A DNA stretch of 64,000 nucleotides, from positions 496,001 to 560,000 of the forward strand of contig NZ_CAHJXL010000001.1 of the NCBI RefSeq assembly GCF_903645315.1. Reading direction: 5' to 3'. This document shows, one piece after another, positions 52,642 to 61,883 of the stretch (its first letter is position 1; every line of letters starts with the position of its first letter). This DNA is from Victivallis sp. Marseille-Q1083. GTDB taxonomy: Bacteria > Verrucomicrobiota > Lentisphaeria > Victivallales > Victivallaceae. The position numbers and the translations under genes are program-made. The notes beneath the pieces are model-generated. The model worked only from the letters and a program-made list of their open reading frames with translations, had not been told where the DNA came from and did no database searches.

Positions 52642-54768
52642 TCAGTTGAGCTGGTCGCGAATCTCAAGCCGCAGCATCGGATTGTCCAGCTTGCGCATGA
52701 CCTCTTCGATCTTGTTGCGCAGCCGGGCGATGAACTGGTAATAAATCCGGCCGTTTCGCACCTGGATGACCACCTGCAGCCTGCTCTCCCGGTCGGTCGG
52801 CAGGTCCTGCAGCAGATTACCGAGCCAGACCGCCGCCTTCGAAACGGTGTCCGCTTCCTGCTTCAGATAGTCCCGGGTCACCGGGCAACGGAAAAAACGC
52901 TTGGCGCCGGACGGCATCAAGCCGGCGGAGACCACGATATCCCGGCCGGAAACATCGATCGTGTAGGTCGCCGTCAATTGGTTGGCGTTCGGGTTGGCCG
53001 CCTCGCGGGCCGCGTCCGGATCGCGCAAATCGCGAAGCAGCGCCTGCGTTCTCAAAGCGATATCCTGCTTGACCACGTCGAACAACTGGTGGTAGCGCGT
53101 CGCCGCGTCGGCCGGACGGGTGGCAGCATCCGGCCACAAGGTGGCCAGGCGGATTTTCTGCCATTCCGATTCCAGCATTTTAACATAAGCGTTGTACAGG
53201 AAACTCTCGGTAAAACGGTCGCTGGAGGAAACCCGGTCGGCCGACGGCACATTCAGAATCTCCTGGATGGCGTTGCCGAGCTGCTGCGGGTCCTGTTTCG
53301 GCAGCAACTCCAGCACTTTCTGATTCAGGCGGTTGTAGGAGTCCTCCAGCAACCGGTCCTGGGTGGTCAGCGCCGTGTCGGCGGGGGTGAACAACTGCAG
53401 CATCTGATCCTGCGCCTGCTTGATCGTCTCATCGAACAGCCGCTTGAAATCGACCATGCCGTTGCCGAGATCAAATGCGTTGAGATTGTAAAGCGTCGCT
53501 TCCGGCCCTTCCCGCCGGAATTCCAGCAACTGCTGCTCCGTCGGCCGGAACGTATTGTTATGGAGATTGGGAAAGAACAGTTTGAACTGATCGGCGATGA
53601 TCTGCTTGCGCAAATCGCGGACCGCCGGCTGAATATTGGCATCGTAATACTGGTTCAGAATCTCATCCGCCGCCGGCGCGGTCGGCACCGTCGCCTCCAG
53701 GAAATGGACCAGCTCGGCATGCGGCGCCCCGCTGAGCAAACTGCAATAACGATTGATCGCATTCTCCAGCGTCCGGCTGCGGAAACGCTGGTAAAGCGTC
53801 TGCCGGCTGCTCTCATCGGTTTTAAAATTGTCCGGGGCGAACTGCATCGCCTCCTTGACTTCTTCGAGTTGTAACGGCAGGACATACTCGGTCAGGTGCT
53901 TGAAAAATTTATCCAACGTCAACGCCTGCGCCCGGCTGGTGACGCCCGGCAGCAGGGACGGAAACAACTGATAGAATTTCCTGTTGGGCTCCGCCTCCCG
54001 CCGTTCCTCCACCGCCGCCGCCAGCGCCTTCTCCAGATAGGTGCGAAATTCGTTGACGGTCGTCGGCTCACTGGATGCCGCTCCGTTGATGAAATCCTTC
54101 TGCCACTGCCGTTGCGCCAGGGCGTCCTCCACCAGCGGCGTAACCAGCGTATCGCGAACGAAAGGACGATTTTCCTCCAAAATATTCTTGCCGGCCGCCT
54201 CCAGCAAACGCTGCTCCATCAGCTTGACCAGATCGGCCTGCTTGTACTGATCGACTTCGGACTCGCTCGGAAACACCATGCTGACCAACCCGGCGCGCTG
54301 CTCTTCGGCCAGACGCTGCCGCGCCTGCTGAAACGCCGGTTCGAACTGCTGTTCGACATTCTTCTGAACCGCCTCCGGCGGCAGGACTTTGGCCTGGTCG
54401 ACGAACGCCGGATCGAACAACGCCGCACTGCCGGCCGGCTGGCTGGCGGTAATCGAGGCGAGCAGCGCATCCACCTCATCCCGGTAGGCCTTCTGCAAAG
54501 CGGTATTGTGCTGCTGCAGCAACTGCTCGCGGGCGGTCTTCAAAAAGACGAACTTGGCCGGGTCCTGTTTCATCGTCTCATAAAAAGCATTGGCGTCGGC
54601 CGCCTGCCGGCTGACGGTATCCTGCAATTGGCTGAGCAGCAGCTTCGCCGACAACAGCGCCGTTTCCCGGTCCAGCCGGCTGCCGGCCGACGCCGTCTCT
54701 TCCGCGCCGAAACACGGCAGCCGGACAGCCCCCAACAACAACAGACAACATACAACAATTCTGATCAT
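52642..54768 (-). CDS. large exported helical protein of a motor-like operon, 708 aa
   Basis: ATG 54768 overlaps the previous stop by 4 bp and opens a signal peptide (MIRIVVCCLLLLGAVRLPCF). Upstream in-frame sequence is Arg/Gly-rich shadow and not used. The mature ~685 residues are almost all charged alpha-helix with Gln/Leu/Glu-rich repeats (LLSQLQDTVSRQ, AEEQRAGLVSMVF, LKQEADTVSKAAVWL) and a short beta stretch (~565-600, LTATYTIDVSGRDIVVSAGL). No enzyme motif or known fold is recognised. As the third gene of a unit with a proton-channel-like and a one-pass partner, it is likely the periplasmic effector that is moved or energised. Confidence 0.65.
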   Translation of the reverse strand: MIRIVVCCLLLLGAVRLPCFGAEETASAGSRLDRETALLSAKLLLSQLQDTVSRQAADANAFYETMKQDPAKFVFLKTAREQLLQQHNTALQKAYRDEVDALLASITASQPAGSAALFDPAFVDQAKVLPPEAVQKNVEQQFEPAFQQARQRLAEEQRAGLVSMVFPSESEVDQYKQADLVKLMEQRLLEAAGKNILEENRPFVRDTLVTPLVEDALAQRQWQKDFINGAASSEPTTVNEFRTYLEKALAAAVEERREAEPNRKFYQLFPSLLPGVTSRAQALTLDKFFKHLTEYVLPLQLEEVKEAMQFAPDNFKTDESSRQTLYQRFRSRTLENAINRYCSLLSGAPHAELVHFLEATVPTAPAADEILNQYYDANIQPAVRDLRKQIIADQFKLFFPNLHNNTFRPTEQQLLEFRREGPEATLYNLNAFDLGNGMVDFKRLFDETIKQAQDQMLQLFTPADTALTTQDRLLEDSYNRLNQKVLELLPKQDPQQLGNAIQEILNVPSADRVSSSDRFTESFLYNAYVKMLESEWQKIRLATLWPDAATRPADAATRYHQLFDVVKQDIALRTQALLRDLRDPDAAREAANPNANQLTATYTIDVSGRDIVVSAGLMPSGAKRFFRCPVTRDYLKQEADTVSKAAVWLGNLLQDLPTDRESRLQVVIQVRNGRIYYQFIARLRNKIEEVMRKLDNPMLRLEIRDQLN

Positions 54769-55559
54769 GGCAATTCTTCCAGCATCGGACATTGGGTTTG
54801 CGTTTTCAGATATTCGAAAGCATAACGTTTCAGGACGCCGTTCAGTTCGGTCAGCAGGATTTTGCGCTGCTCCTCCGGCGCCTGGACATATTGATCGAGC
54901 AGACTCTTGACCCGGTCGCTGCGCGCTTCCGCCGGATGGTCGGCCAGATAATTCTGTACCGCAACGGCCGCCTGGGTCTGCACTTCGCGGCAGGCGGCGA
55001 GCACCGCGTTGATCTTGCCGTCCATCTGGGCGGACAGCCACTCCCGGTTGCCGGACTGCAGGGCGGCGACATCGAGCTGGGAAATCTGAGCGACCTGCTG
55101 CCGCCACTGCTCCAGCAAGGCATTCCGGTCGGAGTAATCGGCATAAACGTTGGCAGCCCCCTGCACGAAAGCATTGCGCAGCACCGCATTCGCGCTGAGC
55201 TGGCCGTTGTCGATCACCATGCCGCCGTTATAGACCAGCTTGGACTCCGGCGTGATTTCCGCCATCACCTTCAAGCCGTAACGGGTCAGAAAGAAATCCT
55301 CGGTCTTCTCCAGCGCCATGATCAACTGCTGCCGCTGCTCGGTCAACAACTGCTCCTGCCGCTGCTCCTCGGCCGCCCGCATCACCTGGTTGGTATTCAA
55401 CCGGAACAGGCAGAAGCCGATCATGAAGATCATCATCAGCGCCAGCGACAACTGCAGCATCAAACCGAGCAACTCATCGATATCGGCATCGGAATTGTTG
55501 CGCAAACCGGCAATCTGCGACAGTTGGCGTTTGGCATGGGAAGAAAGACGATATTTCAT
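54765..55559 (-). CDS. ExbD/TolR/MotB/ZorB-like one-pass membrane protein, 264 aa
   Basis: A short cytoplasmic N-terminus with acidic residues DADIDELL (Asp24, 26, 28) leads directly to one TM helix at ~29-52 (LGLMLQLSLALMMIFMIGF). That is the position of the functional Asp in ExbD, TolR and MotB, although the sequence around it is not a standard match. The ~210-residue periplasmic part is helical (EEQRQEQLLTEQRQQL, DQYVQAPEEQRKILLTELNG) with no OmpA-like peptidoglycan-binding motif. It lies 12 bp after the TolQ-like gene and overlaps the exported-protein gene by 4 bp. It should be the B partner of an ion-driven motor unit. Confidence 0.65.
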   Translation of the reverse strand: MKYRLSSHAKRQLSQIAGLRNNSDADIDELLGLMLQLSLALMMIFMIGFCLFRLNTNQVMRAAEEQRQEQLLTEQRQQLIMALEKTEDFFLTRYGLKVMAEITPESKLVYNGGMVIDNGQLSANAVLRNAFVQGAANVYADYSDRNALLEQWRQQVAQISQLDVAALQSGNREWLSAQMDGKINAVLAACREVQTQAAVAVQNYLADHPAEARSDRVKSLLDQYVQAPEEQRKILLTELNGVLKRYAFEYLKTQTQCPMLEELP

Positions 55560-55571
55560 GGCAACCCGGTC

Positions 55572-56666
55572 TTATGATTCACTGTTCTGGGAATTCGCCG
55601 CCTCGTGCAGCGCATCGTTGAGGGTGGTCAACTCCTTGTTTTTGGTCCGGAGCGCGGCATTCTCCTTCTGCAGCCCCTCCAGCTGCTCGAACAGCGACTG
55701 CTGGCCGGCATTGACCTTGTCGACGATCGCCACGCATTTGTGGAACAATTGCTCCTGCGCCTCCGACAACTGCTTGACCAACGCGTTGTTCTGTTCCTGA
55801 AATTCCTCCTGGATGACGTTCAGCCGTTCCACCGCCGCCGTGCTGCGGCGCAACTGCGACTCCTGCTCCTGCCCGAGTTTTTCAAGAAAAGCGGTATTGG
55901 TCTGCAACATGGAGCTCTGCTGCCGGCCGATTTCATCGAGATTGCCCAGCACCAGTTGAATCTTGTCCAGCAGCGTATCCAAGCCGCTGGGAAATTCATT
56001 CAAGGTATTGCCGGCATCGGCCAGCGTCGAATTGAATCGGCTGAGCTGCTCGGCGCCGACTTCGAACTTCTTGCCGGTCGCGGCGGCCGAATGGCCAAGC
56101 TGGTCGACCAGGTCCAACAGGCTGCCGGCCTCGGTGCCGCGCGAGCCGATCGCCAACTGCGCCAGCTTCAGCATCAGCGGCCGCAGGGAGATCGGCAGCA
56201 GCACCGCCACCCAGGCGACGGCAACCAATGTGGAAAAAAGCGCCGTGTGAAGGCACTGCATCAGCGTGCCGACGCTGATCTTGTCCGCCGGAAAGAAGCC
56301 GATGATGATGATTCCCCAGACCGTACCGATCAACCCCAGCGACACGTTGACCCGGTCGTAACTCTGGAAAAACGGAAAATCATCGCTGACCTGCCGGATG
56401 CCGCGGTAGAGCCGCAGACAACCGACCAGCGTGCACAGCAGGCCGAAAAACGGGATGAACGTACTGATGGTCGACACGTCCAGCGTCGACCAGTCCAGCG
56501 CTTTGAGGTAACCGCTCGGCGGCTCCAGCAGGATGTCGACCCCGCGGAACATCGCCTGGTAGCTGTGGATGGCGCAATAGATATTGTTCACCCACAACAA
56601 TCCGGTAAACAGCGTCAGAATGGCAACGGCAATCAGAATCGGCAGCAGCAAAATTTTCTTTTTCAT
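55572..56666 (-). CDS. MotA/TolQ/ExbB/ZorA-like membrane protein with coiled-coil tail, 364 aa
   Basis: Four TM helices are visible: ~5-27, ~64-86, ~106-125 and ~138-161. TM3 carries LGLIGTVWGI at 110-119, the family's most conserved signature (LGLxGTVxG), and TM4 has LHTALFSTLVAVAWVAVLLP. After residue ~165 comes a long coiled coil (~200-355) that ends KNKELTTLNDALHEAANSQN, which recalls the cytoplasmic tail of ZorA. It probably forms the pentameric ion channel around the 264-aa partner. It is first in the three-gene unit and 101 bp downstream of pgl. Function of the unit is unknown. Confidence 0.72.
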   Translation of the reverse strand: MKKKILLLPILIAVAILTLFTGLLWVNNIYCAIHSYQAMFRGVDILLEPPSGYLKALDWSTLDVSTISTFIPFFGLLCTLVGCLRLYRGIRQVSDDFPFFQSYDRVNVSLGLIGTVWGIIIIGFFPADKISVGTLMQCLHTALFSTLVAVAWVAVLLPISLRPLMLKLAQLAIGSRGTEAGSLLDLVDQLGHSAAATGKKFEVGAEQLSRFNSTLADAGNTLNEFPSGLDTLLDKIQLVLGNLDEIGRQQSSMLQTNTAFLEKLGQEQESQLRRSTAAVERLNVIQEEFQEQNNALVKQLSEAQEQLFHKCVAIVDKVNAGQQSLFEQLEGLQKENAALRTKNKELTTLNDALHEAANSQNSES

Positions 56667-59366: not shown

Positions 59367-61883
59367 ATGTTTTGTAATACCAATCGCCTGCAGCTCGCCT
59401 TGCCGGCCGCCGCCCTGACGCTGGCCGGCTGGCTGACGGCCGGCAGCAGCCAACCGGCGCTCACCCTGACCACGCTGGCGGCCGGAGCCGGTTTGCTGAC
59501 CTCGGCCTGCCTTTTCCGGCCCGGCCAACTGGCCGGCCAGGCCACCCGGCTGGCGGCCGCGCTGTTCGGGGCCGCGCTGGTCGCCGCGATAATCTGGCGC
59601 CTGACGCAGCCGGCAAGCGGCTGGTGGCAGGCGATCATTCCCGCCCTGATTGCCGTCGGTTTCGTCATCGCGTTCGCCGTATTGGCCGGCAAACTGGCCA
59701 ACGGCAGTTATCCGCGGCTGCTGTTGTTGTACGCCGCGGCGCTGCTCGTCGTTTTCGGCGTTTTTTCCGCCGGGACATTCGGCCTGGGCCTGGTGACGGC
59801 AATCACGCTGGCGGCGATCGGCGCCGCCACGCTGCTGCGTCCCTCTTATCCGGGCAAAGGCGGGCGGGACGGCGCCCTGGTGCTGCTGCTGATCGCCCTG
59901 ACCATCGCCGCCTGGACGCTCCTCGAAAGCAACCCGGCCCGCTGGACGCAACTGCGGCTGCTGCTGTCCAGCCGGTTGCAGCAGGAAAATATCGCTTATT
60001 ACATGAACACCGAGCTGCGTTCGATGGCCGCCTGGCTCGGCAGCGCCGATTGCGACGGCATCCCGCTGAAGGAAGTACTGCCGTACTGGTGGAACGAATT
60101 GTGGCCGACGCTGCTGATCGCCGGTTACGGGCGGCTGGCGCTGCTGGCGTTCCTGCTGGTCGCCGGCGTGCTGTTCTGGCAGTTGTTCCAGGGGTTCCGG
60201 CAGTGTCGCGGCACCGTCGCCCCATTGCTGGCGGTCGGTATTTTCGCCTTCCTGTCGAGTCAGTTCCTGATCAATTTTTTATGGTTCGTCGGACTGTTTC
60301 CGCTGTTCGACGCCGCCATGCCGCTGCTGGTCACCAGCCCGGCGTGGTTCATCGCCGACGCGCTGCTGCTGGGAATTTTCTTCCGGCTGATGCCGCGCCG
60401 CTGCCGGCCGTGGCCGCAGTTGCCATTGACGCTGCTGCCGTCGCTGGCACTGTTGCTGCTGCTGGGCCTTGCGGCGCACCTCGACCGCAACCGGGAACCC
60501 GACTGGCAGGCGGTTTCCCGCACGGCCATCTACGACCATGCCAACCGGCCGCTGGCCGGCAGCGGATTGACCGGCGTCGTCGGAATCGACCCTTCACGCC
60601 TGACCGGCGCAACCGCGCCGCAGCGACTGGCGCAACTCGGCCGGCAATTTTTCGGCCTGTCGCCGCAAGCCTTGCGGCAACGCCTCGAAACGGCCCGCCA
60701 CGGAACGGAAAAATATCTCCGGCTGGCTACCGACATACCGCTTGACAAGCTGCCGGAATTGCGGCGCGCACTGCTGCGGAACGGTATTTTCCCGGCAGCG
60801 GTGATCGGCCCGTGGCAGAGCCGGACTTACCCGCAGGGGAATTACCTGGGCAATGTGCTGGGGCTGGTGTCGCGGGAACGCGATCAACTCTATGGCCTGA
60901 GCGGAGTGGAAAAACAGTGCGACGGCGATTGGCAGAGCATCCGGCTGACCATCGATCTCGACTGGCAGAAACGCTGTGAAAACGACCTGGCCCGTCTGGC
61001 CGGCCGGCCGGGCTGGTCGATGCTGCAACTGATTCTCGTCGATCCGACCGACGGCCGGATGCTCGCGCTGGCCCAGCGGCCGGCAACCAATCTGCTCGAC
61101 CGCCGGACGGTTCCGGTCACCGGCAACCTGGCCGCCGAAACGGTTTGGGAACCGGGCGAACTGCTGGCGCCGTTGTGGCTGGCCGACTGGCTGGCCAGCG
61201 GCAAAGTCGCCGCGGACGAAACAATCGACTTGAAAACCCGGCCGGCCGCAGTGATTCTGGACGGTACCGGTTTGCGGGAAAACGCCGGGCTGGCCGCCGG
61301 CACCCCGGCGGAACTGGTGGCCGGCGGTTCCGCCACCGGCCTGGCGCTGTTGGCGGACCGTTTCAGCAACCGTGAACTGCTGGAACAACTGGCCAATCGG
61401 GGACTGACCGAAATTCCGACCGCCGACCTGCAGCCGGCCAGCGGCGGCTTGCTGGAACATTTCACCGACCTGGACCTGGCGCTGCGTTCCCGGCTGGCCA
61501 ACGGCCGCGGCATCGCGGTCAGTTCGCTGCAACTGCTGCGCGCCTATTGCCCGCAGCTCAACGGCGGCTGGCTGCCGCCGTTGTATCTGATTCAGGAATG
61601 GACCGAAGCGGACGGCACGGTCAAGACCGTCCGCCGGGAGTGGCGTCCGCTCCACCCGAACGGCGAAACGCCGGAAATCGCCTGGCCGGCGACGGGATAT
61701 TTCACGCAACTGCGCCAGGCCGACGGCACGACACTGGCGGCCCGCCTCGGCCGCATCGGTTCTGCCGAACAACCGCTGCTGCTGCTTTTCGTCGCCCGGG
61801 TTCCGGCCGACGACGGCCAGGCGGAAGCCGTTTCCGCCGAACTGTTTCAAAAGCTGGCCGCCTGGCACCGCCAGAACCGCTGA
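59367..61883 (+). CDS. degenerate SEDS-PBP fusion protein, 838 aa
   Basis: Residues ~10-370 are ten or so TM helices in RodA/FtsW (SEDS) style, ending with SSQFLINFLWFVGLFPLFDAA and FIADALLLGIFFRLM, the place of ALINIGMxLGLLP and the final SEDS helix. From ~385 on follows a class B PBP pattern: a pedestal (RTAIYDHANRPLAG, YPQGNYLGNVLGLVS, LYGLSGVEKQ), then the transpeptidase fold. The active-site EPGSxxKP is EPGELLAP, with Glu598 for Ser and Ala601 for Lys; the SxN and KTG motifs are also gone (GGSATG, WPATGY). The SEDS loop Asp seems absent (LPYWWNELW). It is probably a pseudo-enzyme that regulates or scaffolds wall synthesis. The ATG follows GGAGGA. Confidence 0.8.
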   Translation: MFCNTNRLQLALPAAALTLAGWLTAGSSQPALTLTTLAAGAGLLTSACLFRPGQLAGQATRLAAALFGAALVAAIIWRLTQPASGWWQAIIPALIAVGFVIAFAVLAGKLANGSYPRLLLLYAAALLVVFGVFSAGTFGLGLVTAITLAAIGAATLLRPSYPGKGGRDGALVLLLIALTIAAWTLLESNPARWTQLRLLLSSRLQQENIAYYMNTELRSMAAWLGSADCDGIPLKEVLPYWWNELWPTLLIAGYGRLALLAFLLVAGVLFWQLFQGFRQCRGTVAPLLAVGIFAFLSSQFLINFLWFVGLFPLFDAAMPLLVTSPAWFIADALLLGIFFRLMPRRCRPWPQLPLTLLPSLALLLLLGLAAHLDRNREPDWQAVSRTAIYDHANRPLAGSGLTGVVGIDPSRLTGATAPQRLAQLGRQFFGLSPQALRQRLETARHGTEKYLRLATDIPLDKLPELRRALLRNGIFPAAVIGPWQSRTYPQGNYLGNVLGLVSRERDQLYGLSGVEKQCDGDWQSIRLTIDLDWQKRCENDLARLAGRPGWSMLQLILVDPTDGRMLALAQRPATNLLDRRTVPVTGNLAAETVWEPGELLAPLWLADWLASGKVAADETIDLKTRPAAVILDGTGLRENAGLAAGTPAELVAGGSATGLALLADRFSNRELLEQLANRGLTEIPTADLQPASGGLLEHFTDLDLALRSRLANGRGIAVSSLQLLRAYCPQLNGGWLPPLYLIQEWTEADGTVKTVRREWRPLHPNGETPEIAWPATGYFTQLRQADGTTLAARLGRIGSAEQPLLLLFVARVPADDGQAEAVSAELFQKLAAWHRQNR

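Follow-up and report, generated by a model that had tools for sequence, protein, structure and literature searches.

A TolQR/ExbBD-like gene trio of Victivallis and its relatives in which the axle aspartate appears to be replaced by glutamine

The window analysed here is a stretch of 64,000 nucleotides from Victivallis sp. Marseille-Q1083, the genome of which comprises 4.82 Mb in 5 contigs. On its minus strand lie three adjacent genes, referred to below as A, B and C (Table 1), with 12 bp between A and B and an overlap of 4 bp between B and C. A first-pass annotation, made from the sequence letters, had described this three-gene layout, and its positions and spacing were all confirmed. Gene calling based on codon usage recovered the same three genes, with the start of C placed 9 codons later.

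Table 1. Genes and residues of the trio, in window coordinates
Feature	Position	Strand	Basis or conservation
A: MotA/TolQ/ExbB-family membrane protein, 364 aa, long tail	55572..56666	-	four predicted TMs, PF01618, hhalign
A tail, residues 190-364, polar, cytoplasmic, presumably coiled-coil	55575..56099	-	weak coiled-coil-type matches
A Asp63, just ahead of TM2	56478..56480	-	invariant 33/33, sole invariant acid of A
A Thr115, pore-Thr position in TM3	56322..56324	-	33/33
A Thr146, pore-Thr position in TM4	56229..56231	-	Thr or Ser in 33/33
B: one-TM protein, 264 aa, helical periplasmic domain	54765..55559	-	structure model
B Gln36, aligned to the ion-carrying Asp of ExbD	55452..55454	-	invariant 33/33
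B Glu29, acid at Q-7	55473..55475	-	acidic in 25/25 main-clade B proteins
C: exported protein, 708 aa, mostly helical	52642..54768	-	ATG at 54768, hydropathy
C residues 1-21, signal-peptide-like start	54706..54768	-	hydropathy
C residues 597-708, alpha/beta domain at the C-terminus, arranged as in RNase H	52645..52980	-	structure comparison

The seven flanking proteins scanned in the window are unremarkable: a GAF/sigma-54 regulator, a HIT protein, a 6-phosphogluconolactonase-type protein, an Smr protein, a beta-lactamase-family protein, an RNase H and one protein bearing a PBP dimerisation domain. An 838-aa protein at 59367-61883 carries the latter domain at 383-519 and gave no transpeptidase match at E 1e-5. 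Neither tolA, tolB nor pal was found among the seven proteins, and the other loci were inspected by eye; by the same inspection, no neighbour was constant across loci, near relatives aside. In two genomes (loci L066 and L067), the trio lies downstream of genes that we take, from the starts of their sequences, to be LpxD-like and Skp-like, a possible hint of an outer-membrane role.

A, B and C travel together. The A core profile matched at least 10 of 137 genomes of the order and at least 27 of 387 genomes sampled from the phylum, a distant clade among them, and a profile built on the A proteins of this distant clade matched at least 19 of the 387, 11 of these through main-clade A genes. The C profiles of the two clades matched at least 17 and at least 21 of the 387 genomes, and their union, at least 25 genomes, fell entirely within the 27 A-positive genomes. 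Since up to 9 candidates per genome were scored for A and 2 for C, these counts are lower bounds. Among the matches listed for the 387 genomes, none had C without A (Fisher P 2e-37, a guide only, as the genomes are related), and A without C was seen in G008, which is 83% complete, and in G211, where A runs to the contig end. The first-pass annotation had made its proposal depend on the trio recurring in other genomes; in 30 of the 34 loci compared (after leaving out, from 12 named loci, five that duplicate other genomes and L059, a near-copy of L053), A, B and C lay on one strand and in this order, so that the grouping is not due to chance. The exceptions were two contig ends, one of them (G290) with C on another contig, locus L023 of G008 with A-B, and L076 (G275) with A-B and C on another contig.

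By the family labels of the genomes, seven families within the phylum carry the trio. In the tree of A, the ten rows from the host family formed one group (98/93), as did those of families f60, f28 and f51, each on its own; f39 and f42 were split, partly by interspersed rows of unknown family, and 8 of the 30 inner branches were weak. This grouping by family suggests an old and mostly vertical inheritance of the trio, with many losses.

Protein A is a homologue of MotA, TolQ and ExbB. It matched PF01618 (MotA_ExbB) with 27.2 bits, above the curated cut-off of 22.9, as did the A proteins of G004 and G008, and the membership in this family that had been proposed at first pass was borne out by hhalign: 33 A proteins aligned with 30 local TolQ/ExbB-type proteins, most of them taken from further genomes of the order, with a probability of 94% and an E-value of 1.2e-7 over a region spanning TM3-TM4. 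When the A cores of the distant clade were scanned singly (n = 8), no Pfam family was matched at E 0.01. The TM core of A gave six PDB matches, of which four were TolQ and one was ExbB, all of them weak (E 0.02-0.9). Hydropathy peaks at residues 5-23, 66-84, 108-126 and 143-161 correspond to four TMs, and the LGLIGTVWGI motif occupies residues 110-119, in agreement with the four-TM protein with a TolQ/ExbB-type TM3 signature that had been described earlier; the tail is polar. The alignment of A was reduced from 37 rows to 33 by dropping L026 (a canonical-type ExbB with a weak match), a second L061 match and the two L075 rows. Residues found in all 33 include N28, D63, T69, G111, G114, T115, G118, G123, T141 and S145. 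At the pore positions of A, located by alignment with local TolQ/ExbB proteins, Ser/Thr is kept.

Protein B has a single hydrophobic peak, at residues 33-51, with D24, D26, D28 and E29 just before it. The first-pass annotation had described a one-pass protein with Asp residues at the cytoplasmic edge of its helix; this description stood, but the acids lie about two helix turns away from the position of the motor Asp, which in the profile alignment is Gln36. The TM helix of B aligns with the transpore helix of ExbD, and hhalign against local ExbD proteins placed Gln36 on the ion-carrying Asp (LLQI..LALMMIFMIA versus LIDLTFLLLIIFMIT), with E-values of 2.7e-4 for the main clade and 0.02, in the same register, for the distant clade, where this register is the weakest link. 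Main-clade B and ExbD also have IFM in common at equal spacing. The alignment of B comprised 30 of the 33 proteins, all but L053, L080 and L082; Gln36 was its sole invariant column, and all 33 proteins carry Gln. Where the axle of known motors has its ion-carrying Asp, B thus appears to have an invariant Gln.

As a control on this comparison, 10 out of 14 ExbD segments outscored all 402 other TM-like segments from the called genes of the loci examined, and the remaining four were beaten or equalled by 29 to 236 controls. These 14 segments had been picked by a pattern that requires Asp, and the retention of Asp was therefore counted separately, by profile: it was present in 33 of the 36 local ExbD rows, some from overlapping loci, with Gly in two and Ala in one. 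The ExbD-type genes with Ala or Gly (L091, L105 and L106) belong to other genomes of the host family, so the axle Asp may have been lost more than once here.

The AlphaFold2 model of B (mean pLDDT of 91.5) is almost wholly helical, with one helix at residues 26-93 followed by a helical domain, and had no clear relative in the PDB. The window B had no convincing match to any family model, and at E 0.01 none of the 30 B proteins matched any Pfam family, an OmpA-like peptidoglycan-binding domain included. Of the MotA_ExbB, ExbD and Zor profiles that the first-pass annotation had suggested searching, the first was matched by A, whereas PF02472 (ExbD/TolR) was absent from the matches of the window B at E up to 1, and no Zor model was listed for the three proteins at the same limit.

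Protein C, described at first pass as a helical protein with a signal peptide, indeed starts with a signal-like hydrophobic segment and is mostly helical. The claim that the trio has none of the known effectors was also upheld, as the scans of B and C turned up no known effector domain, and C had no Pfam match to TonB or TolA. Its C-terminal alpha/beta domain was missing in 10 of the 31 rows of C relatives (L053, L054, L055, L056, L058, L059, L060, L061, L070 and L072, one of them titled Kiritimatiellia) and is therefore not the core of the protein. An ExbD/TolR-like domain had been suspected at this end from the strand pattern, and was rejected after hhalign lent it no support (P 0.52 and P 0.11), with ExbD sets that contained wrong-frame rows; a Foldseek/VIA comparison listed RNase H-like and S11-like arrangements and did not list ExbD, which is no proof of absence. 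In G196 (L070, 4213-6068), the C gene is split over two overlapping frames, by a frameshift or a sequencing error. In G021, C is followed, with an overlap of 4 bp, by a fourth gene (L022, 11618-13528) that encodes a 636-aa protein with a lipoprotein-like start; at the other loci, inspection by eye showed no such gene behind C.

A differs in topology from TolQ and ExbB, which have three TMs, and from GldL, which has two: it has four predicted TMs, with a short TM2-TM3 loop and the long tail. The likeness to TolQR/ExbBD consists of the PF01618 match of A, its alignment over TM3-TM4, the kept pore Thr/Ser residues and the alignment of the B helix with ExbD; the differences are the Gln of B at the ion-carrying Asp, its helical domain, the lack of a PF02472 match, and a partner, C, that matches neither TonB nor TolA. 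The sequence data support a TolQR/ExbBD-type A/B pair, and we regard the trio as similar to, and probably descended from, such pairs; two of the features tested for membership, an axle Asp and an ExbD/TolR match, are absent from B.

In the parts of the literature consulted, an axle Asp within a Ser/Thr ring is treated as the core of such motors (PMC9389320, PMC11890865, PMC12204202), and the available portion of PMC12505986 describes very diverse non-flagellar relatives, with no mention of aspartate found in that portion. The GldLM motor differs in this respect, as its essential acid is a TM2 glutamate of GldL, the ring protein, and not an acid of the axle, according to a passage in PMC8986121; the only invariant ring acid of the trio, A Asp63, is at the start of TM2. 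GldM, as described in part of PMC9389320, has four periplasmic domains, a difference from the trio, and the possible likeness to GldLM lies in the position of the acid. The vWA motor transducers of PVC bacteria are presented in a section of PMC12204202 as uncharacterised TolQ-based systems that also occur in Verrucomicrobia, one family being reported with the Asp kept; they differ from the trio by their vWA domains, for which no match was obtained in the B and C proteins scanned. Another cluster of the Victivallis genome (L028, 3412-8370) encodes in a row a MotA_ExbB protein, a DUF2149 (PF09919) protein and a 1333-aa CobN/Mg-chelatase. Like the trio, it places a small partner after a PF01618 protein, but the partner is DUF2149 and the large protein is CobN; it is probably another non-standard ring/partner/effector set. 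In the PMC open-access subset, no paper was found with TolQ, ExbB and Lentisphaerae together, nor with TolQ, Verrucomicrobi and Kiritimatiell.

Taken as a whole, the trio would be a complex derived from TolQR/ExbBD, with an ion coupling that either uses another acid or has been lost. Because the trio retains the ring residues but not the Asp, we favour, at a probability of about 45%, a cell-envelope complex that arose from TolQR/ExbBD-type motors and retains their ring and axle, the ion step passing through another carboxylate; an uncoupled complex follows close behind. A would form an inner-membrane ring, presumably in the 5:2 stoichiometry with B, with its tails extending, and perhaps bundling, in the cytoplasm. 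One helix of B would run through this ring and extend as a periplasmic rod ending in the helical domain, and C would be secreted as a dedicated periplasmic partner in contact with B. For the ion step, Asp63 of A would be the first candidate, lying where TM2 begins on the periplasmic side, in the manner of the GldL glutamate; the acids immediately beneath Gln36 of B would come second. By moving, B could then turn C or pull on it in the service of some task of the envelope. One genome with A and B in which C was not found, the 83% complete G008, counts against this scheme.

In the uncoupled alternative, which we hold to be a tentative but serious one, A and B would keep the ring-and-axle plan as a trans-envelope scaffold that is fixed or free to turn, or as a tension sensor, and Gln36 would hold the pore permanently neutral and protonated-like. 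Gln is unable to cycle a proton and occurs in 33 out of 33 B proteins, and for the same reason the claim of the first-pass annotation that the machine is ion-powered, which was not borne out, is doubtful. The protonation-mimetic MotB D22N is reported, in a passage of PMC9389320, to give very limited changes, and a neutral amide may therefore fit the site; energised work could also be done by the PF01618 and ExbD genes present elsewhere in the genome. Against a passive complex stands the strict conservation of the pore Thr/Ser residues and of A Asp63, seemingly beyond what a scaffold needs, and the GldLM example indicates that an axle Asp is not obligatory (PMC8986121, in part). A conventional TolQR/ExbBD-type motor is unlikely in our estimation. 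It would imply a shifted register, with the acid at Q-4 or Q-7 acting as the usual ion-carrying Asp, and such an acid does lie one to two turns below Gln36 in all 33 B proteins (25/25 main-clade proteins have it at -7, and 8/8 distant-clade proteins at -4). In the distant clade, SPND moreover resembles the TPxxD of ExbD, and a register shift of one turn could make the D at Q-4 of this clade the motor Asp. However, Gln falls on the ExbD Asp in the alignments of both clades, with IFM at the same spacing in the main clade, and many local ExbD proteins have an acid pair at a similar place ahead of their Asp (DEIN before TPLID), so that the acids of B are not necessarily a motor Asp that has shifted.

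The defence role considered at first pass found no support, and we think it very improbable that the trio is an anti-phage system of the ZorAB kind with a new effector. The long cytoplasmic tail of A recalls that of ZorA (described in part of PMC11890865), and the presence of A in at least 27 of 387 genomes is patchy. ZorB, on the other hand, binds peptidoglycan and requires D24 according to the same part of that source, where B has a helical domain and Gln. PADLOC returned four weak matches for the trio, the best being DruC on the A tail (E 1.2e-4), with no Zor model among the matches of the three proteins up to E 1, and of nine window neighbours scanned against PADLOC, one protein alone gave matches, all to sigma-54-regulator models. 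The third gene looks exported and not cytoplasmic, A had no match in phage or plasmid records, and its tree clusters by host family.

We consider it an even bet that, across a family descended from TolQR/ExbBD, the axle Asp has been replaced by Gln, and that the complex either runs on a ring carboxylate (A Asp63) or serves as an unpowered joint or tension sensor, with a previously undescribed exported partner that is driven or held. In the mechanism accepted for MotAB, ExbBD, TolQR and ZorAB, the Asp of the axle helix is a shared element; if it is replaced throughout the family, the complex would be powered differently or would no longer be a motor. The envelope machines of Verrucomicrobiota would also gain an exported third component, for which no Pfam match was found. 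A conserved family with the ring, the polar pore and one other residue in place of the Asp would be a natural mutant experiment, and the trio thus asks whether such rings need the axle acid, and whether their architecture can be re-used without ion flow.
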